Shown here: positions 7,681 through 27,807 of the stretch, one piece after another
Numbering within the stretch: position 1 is the stretch's first letter
Layout of the letters: every line of letters begins with the position of its first letter
Source: Bacilli bacterium
GTDB taxonomy: Bacteria; Bacillota_I; Bacilli_A; ML615J-28; CAG-313
Reading direction: 5' to 3'
DNA: 64,000 bases
NCBI GenBank assembly: GCA_017398545.1
Contig: JAFQFT010000073.1
Span: 1 to 64,000 of the forward strand
The notes under the pieces: model-generated
Database searches by the model: none
What the model was told of the DNA's origin: nothing
The model's input: only the letters and a program-made list of their open reading frames with translations
Translations under genes and position numbers: made by a program

Positions 7681-8517
7681 ATGGATAATACTAAGTTTTC
7701 TGTTGCTATGTGTGTTTATGGAAAAGATAATCCAGAATGGTTTGAAATTGCTGTTGAAAGTGTTTTAAATCAAACAGTTAAACCATCTGAAATTGTTATT
7801 GTTGTAGACGGACCTCTTACTGAAGAATTATATTTGATAACAGAAAAGTTATCATCAAATAAAATATTTAAAATAATTCGTTTTCCTGAAAATAGAGGAC
7901 ATGGTGAAGCTCGTCGTGCAGGATTTGAAGCGTGCTCAAATGAACTAATAGCTATAATGGATGCTGATGATATAAGCATTCCTACACGTTTTGAAAAACA
8001 ATTAAAATGTTTCGAAAATAATATTGATATTGTTGGAGGAAATATAGCTGAGTTTATTGATGATGTTAATAATGTTGTTGGATATCGCTTAGTACCTCAA
8101 AGTGATGCTGACATTAAACAATATTTAAAGAAAAGATGTCCATTCAATCAAGTAACAGTGATGCTTAGAAAAACAATGTATTTACAATCAGGTGGTTATA
8201 TTGATTGGTATTGGGATGAAGATTATTTTCTTTGGATAAGAATGCTGCAAAATGGGGCAACATTTATGAATATTGATGAAATTTTAGTAAATGTACGTGT
8301 TGGTAAAGAAATGTATCAACGTCGTGGAGGTATTAAATACTTCAAAAGCGAGAAAAAACTACAAAAGTATATGTTAAAAAATAAAATTATTGGATTACCA
8401 ACCTATGTAATTAATGTATTAAAAAGATTAATTGTGCAAGTTTTATTACCAAATAAACTAAGAGGTTGGGTTTTTAAAAAATTTGCGAGGAATAAAAATG
8501 AATTCAAAAAAATATAA
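7681..8517 (+). CDS. Family 2 glycosyltransferase
   Basis: Inverting GT-A glycosyltransferase that should extend the lipid-linked repeat unit in the cytoplasm. It shows FSVAMCVYGKDN at the N-terminus, VESVLNQTVKPSEIVIVVDGP, ENRGHGEARRAGFEA, and the metal-binding MDADDIS motif near residue 98. FLWIRMLQNGA resembles the acceptor-side ED/W motif. The C-terminus is basic and hydrophobic, suggesting peripheral membrane contact. It begins two bases after the PglC-like stop, and its 3' end overlaps the next gene by 20 bases. Confidence 0.85.
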   Translation: MDNTKFSVAMCVYGKDNPEWFEIAVESVLNQTVKPSEIVIVVDGPLTEELYLITEKLSSNKIFKIIRFPENRGHGEARRAGFEACSNELIAIMDADDISIPTRFEKQLKCFENNIDIVGGNIAEFIDDVNNVVGYRLVPQSDADIKQYLKKRCPFNQVTVMLRKTMYLQSGGYIDWYWDEDYFLWIRMLQNGATFMNIDEILVNVRVGKEMYQRRGGIKYFKSEKKLQKYMLKNKIIGLPTYVINVLKRLIVQVLLPNKLRGWVFKKFARNKNEFKKI

Positions 8518-8935
8518 AATAGGATATACAACTGGTGTCTTTGATATGTTTCATATCGGGCATCTTAATATCTTAAAAAAAGCTAAAGAACAATGTGAAT
8601 ATTTAATAGTTGGTGTTTCGACTGATGAAGTGGTTAAAAACTATAAAAATAAATTACCTATTATTCCTTTTGAACAAAGATGTGAAATAGTTTCAGCAAT
8701 AAAATATGTTGATGAAGTTGTACCGCAAACATCAATGAATAAGATGGATGCTTATAAGAAATTAAAATTTAATGCTATATTCCACGGTAGTGATTGGAAA
8801 GGCAGTGAAATGTATAATAAAATTATTGATGAATTTTCTGAAGTAGGAGTAGACATTGTTTTTTTGCCGCATACTGATGGGATAAGTTCAACAATGATAT
8901 CTGATAAGTTGGTAAATAATGAAAACCATAAATAA
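8498..8935 (+). CDS. TagD-like cytidylyltransferase (glycerol-3-phosphate or similar)
   Basis: Small cytidylyltransferase that activates a phospho-alcohol as its CDP form. The 145-residue sequence has TTGVFDMFHIGHLNIL, containing the HxGH nucleotide motif, and near the end TDGISSTMI, matching the ISTT-type motif of glycerol-3-phosphate cytidylyltransferase. I chose ATG 8498, with GAGG at 8487-8490, over the in-frame TTG at 8483. A LicD protein two genes downstream could use the CDP-alcohol. Substrate could be glycerol phosphate, phosphocholine or phosphoethanolamine. The sequence does not decide. Confidence 0.78.
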   Translation: MNSKKYKIGYTTGVFDMFHIGHLNILKKAKEQCEYLIVGVSTDEVVKNYKNKLPIIPFEQRCEIVSAIKYVDEVVPQTSMNKMDAYKKLKFNAIFHGSDWKGSEMYNKIIDEFSEVGVDIVFLPHTDGISSTMISDKLVNNENHK

Positions 8936-10103
8936 TATTGAAAACTTAGTAAATAAATGTACTGGATGTTTTGCATGCGTTGATGTTTGTCCAACAAATG
9001 CCATAACAGATTTCATTGGGAGTGATGGTTTTGCCTATACTTCTATTGAAAATGATAAATGTGTAAAATGTGGTAAATGTTATTCTGTTTGTCCAATTGA
9101 AAATTTAAATAAGAATACTAGTGTTCAATATTTATACGCAGCATATTCAAAGAAAGCAAATGTAAGAAATGCTGGGTCCTCAGGAGGCATTTTTGAACTA
9201 TTAGCTTCTTACTGCATTGATAAAGGTTATTATGTGTGTGGTGCGGCGTTTGAAAATAATACTTTAAAACATCGCTTAATTAATAGAAAAGAGGATTTAC
9301 CTCCGTTATTGAAGTCTAAATATATTCAATCTAATACAAATGGTATTTATAATAAAATACTTAATTTACTAAAAAATGGGAAAAAAGTTTTTTTCTGTGG
9401 AACACCTTGTCAAGTTTCTGCTTTAAAAAACATTGTCCCTAATAAATACCATGAAAATTTACTTTTAGCTGATATCATTTGTCATGGTGTGCCATCACAA
9501 AAAGTATTTGATATGTATATTGAAACTTTAGAAAAAAAATATGGTGGAAGTGTTTTTAATTTTTCTTTTAGAATTAAAGATAATAAGTATAAACATGCTC
9601 ATGGATATTCATTTAAGTTAAAAAAAGGAAATAAAGTTCTAGTTAAAAATGGGATTTATACACAATCAACTTTTTATAATGCATTTAAAAAGTATTTAAT
9701 TTTTAGAGAAAGCTGTTATAATTGTAAATATTCAACTTTAAATAGAACTTCCGATATAACATTGGCTGATTTTTGGGGCGTTGAGAAATATGGGTTTCCG
9801 GGAAATGTTGATGAAGGTGTATCTATGATTATAACTAATAGTTGTAAAGGTTTTGATATTTTTAATGAAATTAAACCTTTTACTATATATGAAGAATTTC
9901 CTTTACAATATGGAATTGATTCTAATTACTGTTTAACCCATAGCACTGTTAAACCGATTAATAGAGATTCAATAATAAAAGACTTACCCACAAAAGGATA
10001 TGAATATATTGCTAATAAATATTTTAAAGAAGGTTTAATAAGTAAAATTTATTGGTTGGTACCTTCTAAAATTAGAAAAATTATAAGAAAGCTAAGAGGA
10101 TAA
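8919..10103 (+). CDS. Iron-sulfur F420-dehydrogenase beta-subunit-like protein of polysaccharide loci
   Basis: The N-terminus has two ferredoxin-type 4Fe-4S motifs, CTGCFACVDVCP and CVKCGKCYSVCP. They are followed by the F420 hydrogenase/dehydrogenase beta-subunit N- and C-domains, with GSSGGIFELLA, FCGTPCQVSALK, CHGVPS and DFWGVEKYG. Such proteins are common in capsule and EPS clusters, usually beside a polysaccharide pyruvyl transferase, and their reaction is not established. No pyruvyl transferase is seen here. It overlaps the cytidylyltransferase by 17 bases. F420 use is unlikely on taxonomic grounds. A flavin- or ferredoxin-linked redox step on a sugar is possible. Confidence 0.8.
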   Translation: MKTINNIENLVNKCTGCFACVDVCPTNAITDFIGSDGFAYTSIENDKCVKCGKCYSVCPIENLNKNTSVQYLYAAYSKKANVRNAGSSGGIFELLASYCIDKGYYVCGAAFENNTLKHRLINRKEDLPPLLKSKYIQSNTNGIYNKILNLLKNGKKVFFCGTPCQVSALKNIVPNKYHENLLLADIICHGVPSQKVFDMYIETLEKKYGGSVFNFSFRIKDNKYKHAHGYSFKLKKGNKVLVKNGIYTQSTFYNAFKKYLIFRESCYNCKYSTLNRTSDITLADFWGVEKYGFPGNVDEGVSMIITNSCKGFDIFNEIKPFTIYEEFPLQYGIDSNYCLTHSTVKPINRDSIIKDLPTKGYEYIANKYFKEGLISKIYWLVPSKIRKIIRKLRG

Positions 10104-22679: not shown

Positions 22680-22819
22680 AAAATGAAAATGTTTACAAAG
22701 GAATAGACTATTATGGATTATTGTATACATCCATTTAAAAAAATAGTTTATATAGCAAATTTGAATAAAGTTTTTGTTTAATATTAACAATAGATTCTTA
22801 ATTATTATAATCATTTGAT

Positions 22820-22847
22820 TTGACATATAAAATAAATATGATATACT
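22820..22847 (+). promoter_or_regulatory. Sigma-A promoter of the dGTPase-like gene
   Basis: Perfect TTGACA (22820-22825), a 16-base spacer, and TATACT (22842-22847) preceded by TGA. The start would be near 22854, just before a series of hairpins and a terminator. The 22680-22819 stretch upstream shows nothing else I can support. Confidence 0.75.
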
Positions 22848-22852
22848 ATTAA

Positions 22853-22947
22853 TACATTTATAATGTAGTTCTTAGCTGAACGAAGGTTGAATGTGAGCCG
22901 GAAAACATTCATAAAATTAATTGTTCTTAGCTGAACAATTTTTTTTT
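22853..22947 (+). ncRNA. Structured leader with internal terminator (candidate attenuator)
   Basis: Successive hairpins are visible. TACATT pairs with AATGTA (22853-22867), GTTC-TTAGCT-GAAC lies at 22868-22881, and TGAATGT pairs with ACATTCA (22888-22911). The intrinsic terminator at 22919-22947 holds a second identical copy of the 14-base GTTCTTAGCTGAAC. The two copies can exchange arms, giving a possible antiterminator. The terminator ends seven bases before GGGGAG of the next gene. I recognise no known riboswitch consensus. A short independent RNA is the alternative. Confidence 0.5.
22919..22947 (+). terminator. Terminator inside the dGTPase leader
   Basis: AATTGTTC pairs perfectly with GAACAATT around TTAGCT, followed directly by seven more T. 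It stands between the promoter and the only downstream gene, so it must be bypassed for expression. Confidence 0.75.
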
Positions 22948-22962
22948 AGAAAAGGGGAGTTT

Positions 22963-24306
22963 ATGAATTGGGAATTTTATGATGGAAAGAAAAAAGAATT
23001 ATTTGCAAATTACAAATATAAATTAATTTGTTCAAAAAATTATAGAAGATTAGATGGAAAAACACAGTTATTTAGTTCTGATAAAGGTGATCATTTTAGA
23101 AATCGAATGATTCATACTGCTGAAGTTAGAGAGATTGCGGTAAAGATTTCTAATAAAATTAATGAAGAATTTGTTAAAAATTATAATGAAAAAATTATAA
23201 ATACTGATTTGGTAGAATGTATTGCTATAGCACATGATTTTGGTCACACCCCATTTGGACATATTGGTGAAAGAACATTACAACAAATAGTTTCGAATGA
23301 TGATCTTTTAGGTGGGTTACTTTGTAAAAATACTAATAGAAAAAAATTGTTTTTTAAACATAATATTAATAGCTTAAGGTTGTTAGTTGAAGAATTCGGT
23401 AAAGGTATTCCTTGGGAAATATTAGATGGCGTTTTAAAACATAGTAAACTTAGTTATAATAAAGACCAAGATAATGGAGTTTCTAATATAATTAGTGGAA
23501 TAGAGTATGATAAAATTTTTTATAAATTTAAAGAATCTAAAAATCCGTTAACTATTGAAGGACAAATTGTGGCGATAGCTGATGAAGTTGCACAACGATA
23601 TTCTGATTTTGAAGATACTTTTAGAGCGAAAAATATAAATATTTTGAAAAAACAAATTTCAATTATGCAAATAGACTTGTCTGATTATGAAGAAGAAAGA
23701 TGTATAAAATATATAGATCGAATATGTTCAAATTTGATTGAAAGTATTGTAAAACAAAGTATCTATAATTTAGAAAATATTATGAAAAATGACTTATTTA
23801 ATCATGATTTTATTGAAGTATTGTCTAATAGAATTGTAATAACTTTTGATTCTGAAGGTGTAAAGTTGAATAACACTTTAGAATACTTTATAAAAGAATG
23901 TATATTTAATATTGATGAATTAAGAAAAATTGATGAAAAAAATAAATATGTAATTCGCCAATTGTTTAAAGCGTATTATAATAATTGTTTTCAAATTACT
24001 GGAGAATATTTTACTAAATTTATAAAAAAACTTAATAAATTGAAAAACAAGTTAGTGTTTAATGATGATACGAAAGAAAAATATTGTAATTTATTAAGTA
24101 TTTCTTTCGTAAACGGAAATAAAATTGATTATAAAAAATTTGATGAATTCATTACTGAACTAAAAAAAGTTGATTTTGATTTAGAAAATAAAGATGAAAA
24201 TTTAACTAAATTATTTTTTGAATATATAAGATTAATAGTATTTTATATAGCGTCTATGACTGATAAGTATGCGCTAGATTGTTATAAATTTTTATATGAA
24301 GTATAA
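22963..24306 (+). CDS. dgt: dGTPase-like HD-domain dNTP triphosphohydrolase
   Basis: Predicted to cleave dGTP or other dNTPs to the nucleoside and triphosphate. The N-terminus has YRRLDGKTQLF and HFRNRMIHTAEVREIA, then IAHDFGHTPFGHIGE with the HD pair near residues 91-92, all standard dGTPase motifs. IEGQIVAIADEVAQRYSDFED carries the later aspartate. 447 residues fits the family. ATG 22963 is preceded by GGGGAG. A frame opening upstream would begin inside the terminator and is not used. The gene stands alone with its own regulated leader. Roles in dNTP balance or anti-phage dNTP depletion are both known for this family. Confidence 0.83.
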   Translation: MNWEFYDGKKKELFANYKYKLICSKNYRRLDGKTQLFSSDKGDHFRNRMIHTAEVREIAVKISNKINEEFVKNYNEKIINTDLVECIAIAHDFGHTPFGHIGERTLQQIVSNDDLLGGLLCKNTNRKKLFFKHNINSLRLLVEEFGKGIPWEILDGVLKHSKLSYNKDQDNGVSNIISGIEYDKIFYKFKESKNPLTIEGQIVAIADEVAQRYSDFEDTFRAKNINILKKQISIMQIDLSDYEEERCIKYIDRICSNLIESIVKQSIYNLENIMKNDLFNHDFIEVLSNRIVITFDSEGVKLNNTLEYFIKECIFNIDELRKIDEKNKYVIRQLFKAYYNNCFQITGEYFTKFIKKLNKLKNKLVFNDDTKEKYCNLLSISFVNGNKIDYKKFDEFITELKKVDFDLENKDENLTKLFFEYIRLIVFYIASMTDKYALDCYKFLYEV

Positions 24307-24385
24307 AATATTTAAATTATCATACAATATAGTGTGTATTTAGTTATACACGTTGTTTATCGTTAGCAAGAAAACGGTTAAAAAA

Positions 24386-24415
24386 AGGTGTTTATTAGAT
24401 TAAATGCCTTTTTTT
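24386..24415 (+). terminator. Terminator after the dGTPase-like gene
   Basis: AGGTGTTTA pairs with TAAATGCCT (two G-T pairs) around TTAGAT, with seven T after and a run of A before, so it may work both ways. A smaller hairpin, GTGTAT-ATACAC, lies upstream near 24330-24350. Confidence 0.7.
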
Positions 24416-24503
24416 ATTTATAGTATGAATTTGTAAATATTGATAATTTTAATTAATAAATTAATTTAATTAATATTTGTGTTAAAAAAATTAATTAAAT
24501 TAA

Positions 24504-24532
24504 TTGACATAATTAATTAAATAGTGTATAAT
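24504..24532 (+). promoter_or_regulatory. Consensus sigma-A promoter within a TTAATTAA-rich region
   Basis: TTGACA (24504-24509), a 17-base spacer and TATAAT (24527-24532) are both perfect. Several TTAATTAA/AATTAATT palindromes lie from about 24448 to 24521, upstream of and within the spacer. This suggests binding by a small regulator, perhaps the DUF2089 protein encoded first in the operon. Confidence 0.8.
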
Positions 24533-24551
24533 TTTAATCGAGGTGATAAAT

Positions 24552-24926
24552 ATGAATAAAAAAGTAATTGGTACTTGTCCAGTATGTGGAGAAAACTTAA
24601 GTGTAAGTGTTCTTACATGTGAGAAATGTGATACAAGTATTCATGGGAATTTTAATTTATCTAAGTTTGATTATTTAAGTGTTTCTCAACAAGAGTTTGC
24701 ATTTGTTTTTATTAAAAATGGTGGAAATATTAAACTTATTGAAAAAGAACTTAATATTTCATATCCTACTGTTAAGAAAAATTTAGATGATTTAATTAAT
24801 GCACTTGGATTTGAAAAGATTAATGAAACTTTGGTTGATAAACCTTCAAAAGAGGATATTTATAAAGCTTTAAAAAATGGTGAAATTACTTTTGATGAAG
24901 CTGAAGAAATGTTAAAGGAGGTATAA
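24552..24926 (+). CDS. DUF2089-family regulator
   Basis: 124 residues. An N-terminal zinc-ribbon with two CxxC pairs (CPVCGENL and CEKCDTS) is followed by a helix-turn-helix-like segment, NIKLIEKELNISYPTVKKNLDDL. The C-terminus has short acidic helices, including NGEITFDEAEEML. DUF2089 proteins are predicted transcription regulators often coded before HAAS/DUF4097 proteins, as here. ATG 24552 is chosen because GAGGTG at 24540-24545 is well spaced to it. It ends one base before the next start. Autoregulation at the palindrome-rich promoter is an inference. Confidence 0.78.
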   Translation: MNKKVIGTCPVCGENLSVSVLTCEKCDTSIHGNFNLSKFDYLSVSQQEFAFVFIKNGGNIKLIEKELNISYPTVKKNLDDLINALGFEKINETLVDKPSKEDIYKALKNGEITFDEAEEMLKEV

Positions 24927-24927
24927 G

Positions 24928-25695
24928 ATGACAAAAGAAGAATATTTAATATCTTTAGAACTAGCACTTAGTAATGCTGGTGTAAGTAATTATGAAGAAA
25001 TTGTAGAGAAATATCGTAAAAGATTTGAACTTGCTGCACTGGCTGATATGACAACTGATGAAGCTATTAAAATGATGGGAAGTGTTGAATCCGTTGTAAA
25101 AAAATATGTTGGTGAAGAAAAAAGCGAATATTTTGATGTTTACACTTTTAAATTAGAAGATGCTTTAGCAAGTAATATAGTTATTAAAAAAGGTAGTAAA
25201 CCAGGAATTGTTATTAATATTGATGAAGAATTACTTGATAAGTTAAATATTCAACATCAAGATAATAAACTAAGTATTACAGATAAATTTGGCAAATCTT
25301 TTTTTAGAAAATGTCGTGGTTCTATATTAATTGAAATTGGTGATAATATTAAATTTGATAAATTTGAGATTTCAACTGTTTCATGTGATGTTGAAGTTTG
25401 TGCTATTAATACTATTAAAACTGTCTTTTATACAGTTTCTGGTGATTTTGATGTTGATAAGATAATTGCAGAAGATGTATTATTAAATAGTGTAAGTGGA
25501 GATTTTAATGTAGGAAGAATTAAAACAAATGAAATTCGTATAAATACTGTTAGTGGGGATGTTGATGTATCATATATTGAAGCAGAAAAAGCTATCTTTG
25601 ATACAGTTAGTGGAGATATTAATGTATGTGGGAAATTAAAATTAAAACGTGGATCTAGTATTACTGGATCAATAAATTATAAAGCAGTGAATTAA
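24928..25695 (+). CDS. HAAS (DUF1700-like)-DUF4097 protein
   Basis: 255 residues in two parts. Residues 1-70 resemble the HAAS/DUF1700 helical domain (MTKEEYLISLELALSNAGV, ALADMTTDEAIKMMGS). The rest is a DUF4097 beta-helix with repeated TVSGDxDV units, seen four times between about residues 160 and 240. No membrane segment or signal is present. In Firmicutes such proteins belong to envelope-stress or lantibiotic-sensing cassettes next to DUF2089 or PadR regulators. AAAGGAGG before ATG is a strong site. The molecular role is not known. Confidence 0.75.
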   Translation: MTKEEYLISLELALSNAGVSNYEEIVEKYRKRFELAALADMTTDEAIKMMGSVESVVKKYVGEEKSEYFDVYTFKLEDALASNIVIKKGSKPGIVINIDEELLDKLNIQHQDNKLSITDKFGKSFFRKCRGSILIEIGDNIKFDKFEISTVSCDVEVCAINTIKTVFYTVSGDFDVDKIIAEDVLLNSVSGDFNVGRIKTNEIRINTVSGDVDVSYIEAEKAIFDTVSGDINVCGKLKLKRGSSITGSINYKAVN

Positions 25696-26957: not shown

Positions 26958-26988
26958 TGTATGATTAATATTGCTTTTGTGGTATAAT
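26958..26988 (+). promoter_or_regulatory. Promoter placed for leaderless transcription
   Basis: TGGTATAAT with TATAAT at 26983-26988 is an extended -10, and TTGTAT at 26958-26963 is a possible -35 with a wide 19-base spacer. The expected start, seven bases after the -10, falls on the A of ATG 26995. No Shine-Dalgarno sequence lies between. Confidence 0.55.
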
Positions 26989-26994
26989 ATATTT

Positions 26995-27807
26995 ATGAAA
27001 AAATTTAAGAACATATACGTAGAAATAACTAAAGCATGTAACTTAAAGTGTAAGTTTTGTCCATCAAGTAGTGTAAATAAACATGAATATTTAAGCTTTG
27101 ATAAATTCAAATATATAATAGATCAAATAAAAGATTATACTGATGGAATATATTTACATATTTTAGGAGAACCACTACTTCATAAAGAAGTGTTTGATTT
27201 TATTGAATATGCTAGTAAAACTTTAAAAGTATCACTTACTACAAATGGACATTTAATTAAGAATCATTATAAAGAACTTATTAACAGTTCTTTATATGTA
27301 TTAAATGTAAGTTTACAAAGCATTAATAAGATTGAAGATATTGAAGAATATTTTTATTATTTAAATGAATTAGTGGTTAATAGAAAGCATAAATTACCAA
27401 TTCATTTAAGAATTTGGAATAATAAAGAAAATGATGAAATCAATAATTTAAATAATAAATTTAATGAATTTATTGAAAAGTATCATTTACTTGATTATCC
27501 ATATGTAAATATGTCTATTGCTGATGAATTTGCATGGCCTAATCTTAATATGGATGATAATAAGGTAAGAAGTAGTTGTCTTGGTGGTAAATCACAGATG
27601 GGTATATTACTTAATGGTGATGTAGTTATTTGTTGTTTGGATTATTTAGGGAATACTTCAATAGGTAATATTTATAATAATAGTTTTAGAGATTTATTAT
27701 GTAGTAGTGAATATAAAAATGTTTTAAAAGGATGGAATGATATTAGTCCATATTTTGAATTATGTAAAAAATGTACATATCGAAATCGTTTTAGAAAGGA
27801 GAAGTAA
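26995..27807 (+). CDS. Radical SAM protein with SPASM-like C-terminus
   Basis: 270 residues. KACNLKCKFCPSSS holds the CxxxCxxC cluster motif (Cys15, Cys19, Cys22) that binds the SAM 4Fe-4S cluster. HILGEPLLHKE and LTTNGHLI are standard radical-SAM segments. The C-terminal half has CLGGKSQMGILLNGDVVICCLDYLG and CKKCTYRN, a SPASM-like set of cysteines for an auxiliary cluster. The family modifies peptides or other substrates. No precursor peptide was found beside it. ATG 26995 is used, because the upstream in-frame codons lie within the promoter. It abuts the LytTR gene. Confidence 0.82.
   Translation: MKKFKNIYVEITKACNLKCKFCPSSSVNKHEYLSFDKFKYIIDQIKDYTDGIYLHILGEPLLHKEVFDFIEYASKTLKVSLTTNGHLIKNHYKELINSSLYVLNVSLQSINKIEDIEEYFYYLNELVVNRKHKLPIHLRIWNNKENDEINNLNNKFNEFIEKYHLLDYPYVNMSIADEFAWPNLNMDDNKVRSSCLGGKSQMGILLNGDVVICCLDYLGNTSIGNIYNNSFRDLLCSSEYKNVLKGWNDISPYFELCKKCTYRNRFRKEK

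Follow-up and report, generated by a model that had tools for sequence, protein, structure and literature searches.

Transcription attenuators with mutually exclusive hairpins are known from trp, pyr and antibiotic-gene leaders. RNAs also restrain effector proteins: the AvcI RNA restrains the deaminase AvcD (PMC10511110), and the RCd22 RNA restrains AbiF (PMC12373285). How bacterial dGTPases, which deplete a DNA building block and can be toxic, are restrained is largely an open question. The authors of the AvcID study considered it unclear whether dGTPase defence constitutes a toxin-antitoxin system, while noting that a halt in transcription activates this defence as well (PMC10511110). Here we analyse the leader of a dGTPase gene within a 64-kb window (the whole stretch of DNA analysed), and propose, with a probability of about one half, that it is a transcription attenuator which keeps an acquired, potentially toxic and probably anti-phage dGTPase low. 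The kind of control is a known one, while this example is unlisted.

The dGTPase cassette and its leader

The features of the locus are as follows.

22706-24459: segment of ~1.75 kb without counterpart in the sister genome G004
22820-22847, + strand: sigmaA-type promoter, TTGACA-16-TATACT with TG ahead of the -10 element, scoring 11/12
22853-22867, + strand: short 5' hairpin TACATT-TAT-AATGTA, absent from an RNA that begins at 22855 or further downstream
22868-22881, + strand: repeat copy 1, GTTCTTAGCTGAAC, a GTTC/GAAC hairpin with loop TTAGCT
22888-22911, + strand: middle hairpin TGAATGT-gagccggaaa-ACATTCA, present in either alternative fold
22893-22934, + strand: candidate leader peptide of 13 codons (GTG...TGA), VSRKTFIKLIVLS, with GAAGG 6 nt upstream and its stop within copy 2
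22919-22947, + strand: terminator-like hairpin AATTGTTC-TTAGCT-GAACAATT (22919-22940) followed by T9, with repeat copy 2 (22923-22936) as its core
22951-22959, + strand: Shine-Dalgarno region AAAGGGGAG, directly 3' of the terminator-like hairpin and T9
22963-24306, + strand: gene for a 447-aa dGTP triphosphohydrolase with an HD domain
24384-24415, + strand: terminator-like hairpin AAAGGTGTTTA-TTAGAT-TAAATGCCTTT and T run, after the gene

The G004 flanks on both sides are 87-91% identical to the window, and the slot between them is occupied instead by a different open frame of ~200 codons, which we take, by eye, to resemble a CotH-type fragment. Since segment 22706-24459 is absent from G004, comparison of the two sequences indicates that gene, leader and promoter were jointly acquired or differentially lost as a single segment. 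Promoter, gene and terminator are all contained in the cassette, which occupies a variable intergenic slot between a Flg_new-repeat gene and a DUF2089 gene; no clear defence partner was found among the genes nearest to it. The DUF2089 regulator gene (24504-25695 region) has its own perfect TTGACA-17-TATAAT promoter, and the gene that follows it in the same region is, judged by eye, presumably DUF4097 or LiaX-like. A radical SAM gene at 26971-27807 gave a partial match to the PADLOC prokaryotic viperin model (residues 15-121, E 3.9e-16) and is probably an ordinary SPASM-type enzyme.

By its sequence, the gene product is a dGTPase family enzyme, as had been proposed from the open reading frame: it passes the cutoff of TIGR01353 (dGTP triphosphohydrolase; 168.7 bits, cutoff 152.35), and its HD-type metal-site residues H51, H91-D92 and D207 are intact and fall in invariant alignment columns. 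An AlphaFold model of moderate confidence (pLDDT 75.8) has solved dGTPases (4xds, 9p8w and 2dqb), and also CloA, as its best structural matches. The PADLOC dGTPase model was matched with an E value of 1.6e-46, and the cutoff of the NCBIfam anti-phage dGTPase family NF041026 was missed (116 bits vs 400). We consider the enzyme probably anti-phage and potentially toxic.

Upstream of the gene, the promoter described in the original prediction as consensus is present but is better termed near-consensus; in DNA as AT-rich as this, promoter-like matches as a class do not exceed chance (40 seen vs 38.3 expected). From the promoter spacing, an RNA start at about 22853-22856 is expected, and the leader that follows the promoter spans ~92 nt. 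The original prediction also described a 14-base unit occurring twice, 55 bases apart, and this is exact: GTTCTTAGCTGAAC is found without mismatch at 22868-22881 and 22923-22936, 55 nt from start to start. Apart from a TT inserted between bases 4 and 5, the unit is the perfect palindrome GTTCAGCTGAAC. Outside this leader it was found neither in the 1.83-Mb genome nor in 14 family genomes; the exact tandem pattern was seen only in the window among 395 class genomes and viral contigs. In second-order Markov shuffles of the 64-kb window (200 trials), exact 14-mer repeats no more than 100 nt apart arose 0.255 times per 64 kb, or 0.025 times where at least 5 G/C were required, and an exact repeat with four-base hairpin arms arose in none of the 200 shuffled windows. 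In a scan for exact repeated hairpins over 1.08 Mb (the window and fetched loci, both strands), only this leader carried a T tract (at least 7 T in 8) after the second copy; the few other exact repeated hairpins had second copies without such a tract. The placement of a repeat with hairpin arms inside the terminator is therefore non-random. The sequences flanking copy 1 and copy 2 have no similarity, which makes it unlikely that the repeat arose by plain duplication of a larger stretch.

That the second copy forms the core of a terminator-like hairpin just before the Shine-Dalgarno sequence also agrees with the original prediction. The predicted stem has 8 bp with only 2 G-C pairs, and was missed by an automated terminator scan because the scan requires 3; it nonetheless falls within the range of the other terminator-like hairpins in the window, and an intrinsic terminator with a weak stem is plausible. 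The distance from the T tract to the ATG is 15 nt, which leaves no space for a second promoter, such that copy 2 lies on the sole path from promoter to start codon.

Predicted alternative folds and relatives of the enzyme

The unit is nearly self-complementary, and as a result each copy can either form its own hairpin or join the other in a shared helix of 12 bp with two UU bulges. The arm swapping that had been suggested is borne out in silico, where the copy 1-copy 2 helix was the best alternative fold obtained when the terminator hairpin was penalised, with predicted leader energies of -18.3 kcal/mol for the terminator fold and -16.2 kcal/mol for the helix (a gap of 2.1 kcal/mol). An alternative of this kind is expected, since any hairpin present twice can cross-pair; its closeness in energy depends on the repeat, as replacing copy 1 with 500 random hairpins of like composition gave a median gap of 6.5 kcal/mol, and a gap as small as that observed in 1.8% of these controls. 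In simulated folding of the growing transcript, the copy 1-copy 2 fold was best at 22934-22938, before the terminator is complete. The stability of the whole leader was ordinary relative to shuffled sequence (z = -1.19), and what is unusual in these models, which rest on one sequence, is thus the repeat and the predicted bistability rather than overall stability.

Homologues were sought in order, class, phylum, viral, phage, plasmid and genome collections. Among the matches listed, the nearest dGTPase homologues reach a best full-length identity of 37%. These nearest enzymes have a patchy distribution in another family of the class, with matches in 18 of the 279 genomes of that order. In the window's own order, the search of the 42 other genomes gave nothing beyond one distant copy interrupted by stops (G038). 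None of 126 homologue leaders resembles the GTTCTTAGCTGAAC leader; a terminator-like hairpin lies close to the start in two, and one has a repeated-hairpin array (G252). Searches for the leader by DNA and sequence model, across relatives and the 43 genomes of the order, returned no convincing homologue, with DNA matches falling mostly in AT-rich or promoter DNA and sequence-model matches being weak and scattered. Leader matches in phages and plasmids were set aside as promoter-like or other chance matches. Consistent with the earlier view that no known riboswitch is present, the window contains no match to Rfam 15 at gathering score; the best sub-threshold match in the leader (E<=10 search), a PyrR site, was dismissed as noise (17.8 bits vs 54). 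Absence of the leader from relatives, which had been named as a ground for rejecting the prediction, is no fair refutation, because the relatives also lack a dGTPase above 37% identity among the matches listed.

Several homologue leaders have features of their own. In three near homologues from the family of G175 (L149, L151 and L152), a TATAAT-like box lies within about 10 nt of the ATG, which suggests that these dGTPase mRNAs may be leaderless. At L037 (G210:C18, ~1410-1520), a promoter-like sequence is followed by the hairpin ACTCTC-GAAA-GAGAGT and a T run. Only about 4 nt separate the end of this run from the dGTPase ATG, and they contain no Shine-Dalgarno sequence; the dGTPase gene itself is split by a frame break. 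At L226 (G252:C3), the reverse strand carries at ~8400-8860 a 213-nt tandem array, with 2.3 copies that are 97% alike, which holds the hairpin GTTCGATTTAGGGAAC five times. The array lies immediately before a distantly related dGTPase homologue whose ORF opens at 8940. Promoter-like and terminator-like sequences on the reverse strand suggest that the array may represent repeated small RNA genes. A motif common to the G252 hairpin (GTTC-GAT-TTAG-G-GAAC) and the GTTCTTAGCTGAAC leader was considered, and homology is not claimed, because the pattern was defined post hoc, ~2 chance matches are expected in the scanned DNA by our own estimate, and an unrelated host terminator (L220) also fits.

Proposed attenuation and its alternatives

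Under the attenuator reading, transcription would start near 22854, and in the default state self-folding of copy 2 would end most transcripts after about 92 nt in T9. In some transcripts copy 1 may instead capture copy 2 (GUUC1-GAAC2, AGCU1-AGCU2, GAAC1-GUUC2), forming a long helix that would dissolve the terminator and permit read-through into the dGTPase gene. The balance might be shifted by a protein, by transcription speed or by translation of the small leader ORF, or may merely be a fixed ratio. We favour attenuation as the simplest account in which every part has a role: by sequence and predicted fold a terminator lies between promoter and gene, and the mutually exclusive folds are of similar energy. 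Against it, the enzyme's relatives do without such a leader, the terminator stem has only two G-C pairs, the leader as a whole is of ordinary stability, a cross-paired fold follows from any repeated hairpin, and termination at the hairpin, the copy swap and their purpose are what we infer from the one sequence in which the leader is known. The original prediction of a nucleotide-sensing attenuator holds in part: an attenuator-like leader is supported by anatomy and by repeat-dependent folding, but no evidence was found for the sensing of nucleotides.

The strongest competing reading has the terminated RNA acting on the enzyme; a DNA operator, a leader peptide and an absence of function are weaker. 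If the ~92-nt RNA were itself the product, an antitoxin that binds and restrains the dGTPase, the terminator would merely set the excess of RNA over enzyme mRNA, and phage transcription shut-off would free the enzyme. We regard an RNA antitoxin as possible, though unlikely, and its fuller form, in which RNA in excess through the internal terminator would guard the dGTPase until shut-off removes it, as rather improbable. The succession of promoter, structured RNA with repeated hairpin, terminator and effector gene follows the type III order (PMC5086642), AbiF has a similar arrangement with two repeated motifs (PMC12373285), and AvcID depletes dNTPs under RNA antitoxin control (PMC10511110). Further, structures of the E. 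coli dGTPase contain DNA effector molecules, and one other dGTPase homologue (G252) has an upstream repeated-hairpin array. However, the repeat unit here is 14 nt and occurs twice, 55 nt apart, whereas type III systems need a tandem array of 34-50-nt units, and the protein is an HD dGTPase rather than a ToxN-type endoribonuclease; strict type III membership thus fails on repeat length and toxin fold, with only the order of parts in agreement. Copy 2 also lies inside the terminator, a conserved RNA is absent among homologues, and the literature searched contained no RNA antitoxin of a dGTPase.

The possibility that there is no regulation at all is unlikely; under it, the terminator-like hairpin would be leaky or decayed, and the repeat a relic or an accident in the non-coding leader of a recently acquired gene. 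It would be in keeping with an unconserved leader, a weak stem and relatives of the enzyme that lack the leader, but is opposed by the placement of a repeat with hairpin arms in the terminator, far above shuffled expectation. It is also doubtful that GTTC-N6-GAAC is a repressor site, with two sites downstream of the promoter serving as roadblocks and the hairpins as a by-product. The half-sites are about one helical turn apart and the two copies are identical, including their centres, but the centre TTAGCT is asymmetric, the cassette has no regulator gene and the exact site is found nowhere else in the genome, where near matches (<=2 mismatches) show a modest excess (15, including these two, vs 6 for the reversed pattern). 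Least probable of all, translation of the 13-codon GTG ORF, or of an ATG-TGA start-stop, into the terminator arm would block termination, such that the switch senses the speed of the ribosome or of RNA polymerase. The GAAGG 6 nt before the GTG at 22893 and the stop in copy 2 are in keeping with this, yet AT-rich DNA often gives short ORFs by chance, the frame has no run of codons for a regulated amino acid, and the identity of copy 1 and copy 2 is left unexplained.

Comparison with described systems

The leader shares with classical attenuators a promoter, an alternatively folding leader and an intrinsic terminator just before the gene (here predicted), but differs in that two identical near-palindromes form the alternative and that it has neither an Rfam match nor an assigned ligand, leader peptide or protein site. 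AvcID, which comprises a dCTP deaminase and the AvcI RNA, similarly joins a dNTP-depleting enzyme to a structured non-coding RNA; however, the enzyme differs, and the ~280-nt AvcI lacks a predicted terminator ahead of avcD, in contrast to the terminator-like hairpin that precedes the dGTPase gene (PMC10511110). AbiF/RCd22 of Clostridioides difficile resembles the locus in that a SigA promoter is followed by an RNA of ~100 nt, in which two motifs are repeated, and then by a terminator and an effector gene, although the RCd22 motifs are 33 and 35 nt and stand apart from the terminator, and the effector is AbiF in place of a dGTPase (PMC12373285). The anti-phage dGTPases of Shewanella (PDB 9p8w) and of Clover (CloA; PMC12265719) share the dGTPase family and fold, while the enzyme described here has low identity to them, falls below the NF041026 cutoff and belongs to a cassette without a CloB-like partner. 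A leader that throttles a dGTPase, or an RNA that guards one, would provide a small and directly testable case of how such enzymes are restrained, and the antitoxin reading, if true, would add dGTPases to the deaminases as enzymes of nucleotide-depletion defence that are guarded by an RNA.
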